From Halorubrum distributum JCM 10118 (GTDB lineage: Archaea; Halobacteriota; Halobacteria; Halobacteriales; Haloferacaceae): a stretch of DNA of 50,960 nucleotides. This document shows positions 49,645 to 50,960 of this stretch, one piece after another. The stretch covers positions 10,406 to 61,365 of the forward strand of contig NZ_AOJN01000064.1 in assembly GCF_000337335.1 (NCBI RefSeq), given 5' to 3'. Numbering within the stretch: position 1 is the first letter of the stretch; every line of letters starts with the position of its first letter. The translations under genes and the position numbers were made by a program. The notes beneath the pieces were generated by a model. It was not told the DNA's origin and did not search any database. It saw only the letters and a program-made list of their open reading frames with translations.

Positions 49645-50944
49645 GTGTCACTGCTTCCACCGTCCGCGCGTCCCCGCCGACTCGCCGCCCGGCTCCGACA
49701 GCGGCTCGCCCGCGCCGACCGGGTGAGCCTCGCCGCGGCGCTGGTCGCCGTCGCCGCCGGCCTGCTGACGTTCGCGATCGCCGCCACCGTCTTCTCGCAC
49801 CACTCCGCGAACCACGACGAGGGGGTCTACCTCACGCAGGCCGCGCTCCTCCTCGAAGGCCAGCTGGCGTTCCACGCCGGGCCGCTCGCGGATGCGTTCC
49901 ACCCGTGGTTCTTCATCGAGGACGGCGGGCGGCTCTACCCGAAGTACAACCCCGTCCCGGCGGCGATGTTCGCGGTCACGATGGGCCTGTTCGGCGAACC
50001 CCGCGTCACGCTGGCGGTCGTCGCCGCCGGCAACGCCGCCCTCGTGTACCTGCTCGGGTCGATGGCGGTCGGCCGCCGAGCGGGGCTCGCCGCGGCCGTC
50101 TGCTTCGCCGCGTCGCCGATGGCGGTCGCGACCTCGTCGGCGTTCCTCCCGTACGCGCCGACGACGTTCCTCAACCTGATCTTCGCCGTCGCGTACCTCC
50201 GGAGCGTCCGGGACCGGTCGCTCCGGGCGGCCGGCGTCGCGGGCGTCGCGATCGGGCTCGCGTTCTTCGCGCGGCCGTACACCGCGGTGCTGTTCGCCGC
50301 CCCGTTCATCGGCCACGCGCTGTGGCGGGTGTGGTCGGCGGTCCGCCGCTTCGGCGTCGAGTCCGGGACGTCGACGCCGCGTGCGTTCGCGGCCCTCGGT
50401 CGCCGCGCGCTTGGAGTCGGCCGGTCCGGTGAGCTTCCCGGGCCGATCCGCCGCCACGGGCTCACGGCGCTGTTCGGCACCCTGTTCGTCGGCGTCACGC
50501 TCGCGTACAACGTCCGGATGACCGGATCGCCGCTCGTGTTCCCCTACCAGGTGTTCGCGCCGATGGACGGCCCCGGCTTCGGCGAGCGGCGCATCCTCGG
50601 CCACACGGTCGACTACACGCTCGGGCTGGCGCTGGAGTCGAACCGGTACGCGCTGCAGGAGATCGCGACCCGGTGGTTCGCGGCCGGGCCGCTCGGGACG
50701 GCCGCGGCGCTCGTCGGCGGCGTGGTCGCGGCCTACGGGTGGCGCGCGAGCGGCGACCCGCGCGGCCTCCTCGATGACGGCGAGACCGGGCCCTCGCCCG
50801 ACCCCGCCGGTTCGCCCGCGTTCCGGCGGACGGCGACGCTGCTCCTCGTCGGCGTCGCGGTCTCGGTCGCCGTCGGGAACCTCTACTTCTGGGGGACCCA
50901 CAACGCGCTCGCCGACCTCTCGGACCCGACCGACGGGCTCGCGT
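49645..50944 (+). CDS. GT39/ArnT-like membrane glycosyltransferase (3' end missing)
   Basis: An open frame from GTG 49645 to the contig end, more than 430 codons. It begins MSLLPPSARPRRLAARLRQR, followed by a first membrane helix ([20 protein letters not shown]) and then HHSANHDEGVYLTQAALLL. The Asp-Glu pair in this first loop is the hallmark of GT-C glycosyltransferases such as ArnT and protein O-mannosyltransferases. Further helices and LYPKYNPVPAAMFAVTMGLF follow, with FFARPYTAVLFAAPF later. It would use a polyprenyl-phosphate sugar on the outer face of the membrane. It starts 48 bp after the iron-binding protein gene and has no iron box of its own, so co-transcription is likely. The sequence from 50945 is adapter. 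Confidence 0.8.
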
Positions 50945-50960
50945 CTGTCTCTTATACACA
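50945..50960. other. Nextera/Tn5 mosaic-end adapter sequence (contig-end artefact)
   Basis: CTGTCTCTTATACACA is the standard start of the Nextera transposase adapter. On the minus strand it yields the well-known artefactual peptide start MYKRQ. It should be trimmed and not annotated as genomic. Confidence 0.95.

Follow-up and report, generated by a model that had tools for sequence, protein, structure and literature searches.

Does the last stretch of a contig belong to the chromosome that it is meant to represent, and is the gene that stops there short by nature or by assembly? This question is raised by the final 16 bases of a stretch of 50,960 nucleotides from Halorubrum distributum JCM 10118, referred to here as the window. 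A preliminary description had read these bases as an untrimmed Nextera adapter. Both its observation and its interpretation are supported by the present analysis, and the case is an ordinary artefact; what is added here is the generation of the kit, the extent of the adapter across the genome and the gene's remaining half.

The terminal bases of the window

Direct reading of positions 50945-50960 gives CTGTCTCTTATACACA, and the window closes with ...GGGCTCGCGT followed by CTGTCTCTTATACACA, the junction between genomic and adapter DNA lying between the two. The window corresponds to positions 10406-61365 of contig C64, which is 61,365 bases long, so that the final base is common to window and contig. 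A Nextera sequence, AGATGTGTATAAGAGACAG, is given in a passage of PMC3699833, and the reverse complement of that sequence begins with the same letters as the terminal bases of the window (16 of 16). Comparison with the adapter sequence thus bears out the earlier reading of a Tn5 mosaic-end adapter, as an exact match placed at the contig's very last base. When up to three mismatches are allowed, positions 50945-50960 remain the sole match in the window, against an expectation of 0.02 from dinucleotide shuffles. The G+C content of the 16 bases is 0.375, compared with 0.694 over the whole window. These bases are confirmed as a laboratory adapter, that is, a sequencing artefact with nothing biological about it. 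The features concerned are collected in Table 1.

Table 1. Features at the end of the window and the basis of each assignment
Feature	Position	Strand	Basis or remark
Untrimmed Nextera (Tn5 mosaic end) adapter, reverse complement, 16 bases, contig end	50945..50960	+	Exact match, terminal position
Predicted membrane glycosyltransferase, 5' part, 433 complete genomic codons plus one base, Pfam PMT_2 (PF13231)	49645..50944	+	3' part on C65
Spurious ORF 'MYKRQ...', 154 aa	50495..50959	-	Sole ATG/GTG/TTG is a GTG within the adapter
Open frame ending '...LSLIH', last residues read from adapter, no gene	50774..50959	+	ORF list

Distribution of the adapter and version of the kit

The window's genome (G000) consists of 68 contigs and 3,306,135 bases, in which the 16-mer occurs 36 times exactly; a reversed control sequence does not occur at all. 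Behind 20 of these copies the bases reach a contig end and behind the other 16 they meet N within 25 bases, none of the 36 reaching neither. When 150 bases at either end of every contig were surveyed (136 ends), exact adapter of 15 bases or more was found to close 20 of them (12 starts and 8 ends). The start of C41, where the adapter carries a tail that diverges at its last bases, brings the total to 21 of 136 ends with at least 15 adapter bases. The 16 copies within scaffolds stand beside N on C13, C18, C32, C48, C49, C55, C65 and C66, and at six places two copies face each other across N. Adapter beside N within scaffolds implies that the sequence is broken inside contigs too.

Other contigs of this genome carry the full mosaic end followed by up to 16 exactly matching bases of primer tail. 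At least four exact tail bases are present at 8 of the 20 ends, and all eight fit the early Nextera tails (five fit one tail and three the other). The Illumina Nextera tails, in the letters which we take them to have, fit none of the same eight. The sequences printed for Adaptor 1 and Adaptor 2 of the Epicentre kit in a part of PMC3699833 include the two early tails. These longer copies show the adapter of this genome to be, as judged from its letters, that of an early Epicentre version of the Nextera kit; the assignment rests on the other contigs because the window's 16 bases end before the tail begins.

Within the genus, the 16-mer is present in 10 of 52 genomes, the window's own counted: eight hold 22 to 37 copies and two hold one or two, while the remaining 42 have none. 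One contig of a sister genome (G015:C17) is contained letter for letter in contig_17 of Halorubrum kocurii JCM 14978. At the end of contig C22 in another genus genome (G036), the bases behind the mosaic end agree with the later Illumina Nextera tail, again in the letters we presume for it, and not with the Epicentre one. The mosaic end joined to an early tail was found in at least 119 stretches of genome contigs. Among the 80 matches listed, haloarchaea (Halorubrum, Natrialba, Natronococcus and others) account for 25 and Streptomyces and Actinoplanes for the remainder; many 'Doro1' scaffolds of NRRL strains of these two genera (L190-L268) bear the same early Nextera adapter. Viral contigs yielded at least 120 stretches (L049-L168), and 95 of these loci hold a whole viral contig. 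In those 95, all but one of 102 full mosaic ends lie no more than 100 bases from a contig end, and the exception (L053) stands close behind NN. The Illumina Nextera read-1 adapter was matched by 42 of 50,697 phage records, in some under annotated features (terminase, tail fibre).

The divided gene and the false reading frames

The open reading frame at 49645-50958 matches Pfam PMT_2 with an E-value of 2.8e-08 and has counterparts in 47 of the 52 genus genomes, a count that takes in the window's own. Among the matches listed, the open frame of the relatives measures 743-1040 aa, except for 404 aa in G040 and 512 aa in G004. The open frame in the window's genome is 454 with the adapter included, against 433 genomic codons. 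Adapter supplies two of the three bases of codon 434 and the whole of residues 435-438 (VSYT), so the last residues of the predicted protein are indeed artefactual, as had been proposed.

It had also been claimed that assembly, not biology, cuts this gene. Continuity beyond the junction was judged from the genomes of relatives and from contig C65 of the same genome. Of 19 loci in relatives, 17 align with the last 400 genomic bases as far as base 50944 and, by chance, one base more. In the other two the alignment ends 3 bases earlier, at query base 397 (L188), or already at query base 229 (L187), where the relative's own contig is nearly at an end. A relative from a closed, one-contig genome (L170) provided the C-terminal part of the protein (337 aa), which found a single place in the window's genome, C65:34-861, with 89% identity over residues 65-333. 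A 35-base run of adapter, in the orientation opposite to that of the C64 copy, opens C65 itself. Projected on the same relative, the two parts of the gene are separated by 196 bp missing from the assembly, the one on C64 reaching to 2797 and the one on C65 setting in at 2994. With its continuation on C65 behind adapter and about 196 bp absent relative to L170, the gene has been divided over C64 and C65 by assembly. Homology up to the junction and the missing half on C65 both uphold the claim, and the predicted glycosyltransferase gene is shown in this way to be truncated by an assembly break. The missing 196 bp have a G+C content of 0.78 (flanks 0.74 and 0.72) and a predicted structure of -116.0; 41 pieces of the relative's locus average -89.5, the lowest value being -117.6. 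Most of that locus is thus somewhat poorer in G+C and predicted structure than the gap, a difference that, for a single site, is no proof by itself.

The minus-strand protein MYKRQ..., likewise called an artefact beforehand, proves to be one, its only start codon lying inside the adapter. On C65 too, the true frame extends across the adapter and begins MPARSEMCIRDS..., with a further MYKRQ ORF in a different frame; false adapter frames are therefore demonstrated on two contigs. Through leftover adapter of this kind in a published haloarchaeal cohort, false starts and ends (MYKRQ..., ...MCIRDS... and ...SVSYT) more likely than not recur in annotated databases, where, if so, they could mislead analyses of protein ends. 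A literature search for adapter-derived peptides returned none described as artefacts, and MYKRQ alone gave a paper: a proposed oestrogen-receptor variant in guppy begins with it (PMC4658143), in a passage that does not discuss adapters. A second search, on adapter contamination of assemblies and at the level of titles and listings, found nothing directly on the present case.

The relevance of these observations is one of quality control only. The gene should be treated as truncated and the MYKRQ ORF discarded, and in the window's genome 21 of the 136 contig ends and 16 gap-side positions should be handled as adapter-bearing. Otherwise a false N-terminus (MPARSEMCIRDS...) would be added to the part of the gene that lies on C65.

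Origin of the adapter and comparison with known sequences

It is virtually certain that the terminal bases are synthetic adapter, left probably by untrimmed read-through of short inserts and by extension of the contig where coverage failed. In this scheme, Tn5 tagmentation would have produced some library fragments shorter than the read length, whose reads would traverse the insert into the reverse-complemented mosaic end and primer tail and would be left untrimmed. Where genomic coverage failed, the assembler may then have extended the contig end into adapter k-mers and stopped. We infer the steps of read-through and failed coverage from the pattern of copies rather than from reads. A part of PMC4230888 reports 59 haloarchaeal drafts, assembled with A5, for which Epicentre Nextera with purified transposase (in-house Tn5) was among the library types, and the window's genome is presumably among them. 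According to a passage of the A5 paper, Tagdust screens the reads for Epicentre Nextera adapters; survival of the adapter would thus require the filter to have missed some reads, as it evidently did.

Three other explanations were weighed and rejected on copy positions, primer tails and controls. The facing copies at six places of the genome could recall a mate-pair circularisation junction, in which a mosaic end is joined to its own reverse complement. However, between the facing copies stand N and fragments of one or two primer tails, with no direct joining, the window has a single copy, at its very end, and the mate-pair libraries of the project were of 6 kb and made by 'standard protocols' according to a part of PMC4230888. 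A junction of this kind is extremely improbable.

A natural IS50/Tn5-like transposon end inserted into the glycosyltransferase gene is even harder to credit. The mosaic end does, admittedly, combine real IS50 ends, and a single base sets it apart from the outside end, in the letters we assume for the latter. Yet all 36 copies halt at a contig end or at N and none continues into element DNA, the longer copies run into primer tails, the base pattern is that of the synthetic hybrid, and the gene is uninterrupted in relatives and continues on C65. As for a chance chromosomal sequence, no point in its favour was found and its probability is close to nil: even with three mismatches only 0.02 matches are expected in the window, the genome holds 36 copies against none of the control, and 42 of the 52 genus genomes lack the 16-mer.

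Among known sequences, the untrimmed adapter at the window's end is closest to the Epicentre-era Nextera/Tn5 mosaic-end adapter with 454-style tails, with which it agrees at all 16 bases. It stops three bases short of the complete Nextera/Tn5 mosaic end and is otherwise without difference from it. The outside end of IS50 in natural Tn5, in the wild-type letters which we take it to have, shares 15 of the 16 bases and differs at one. Unlike a natural IS50 end, the adapter found here has no element DNA behind it in any of the 36 copies inspected in the genome, and its many copies are confined to breaks in the assembly.
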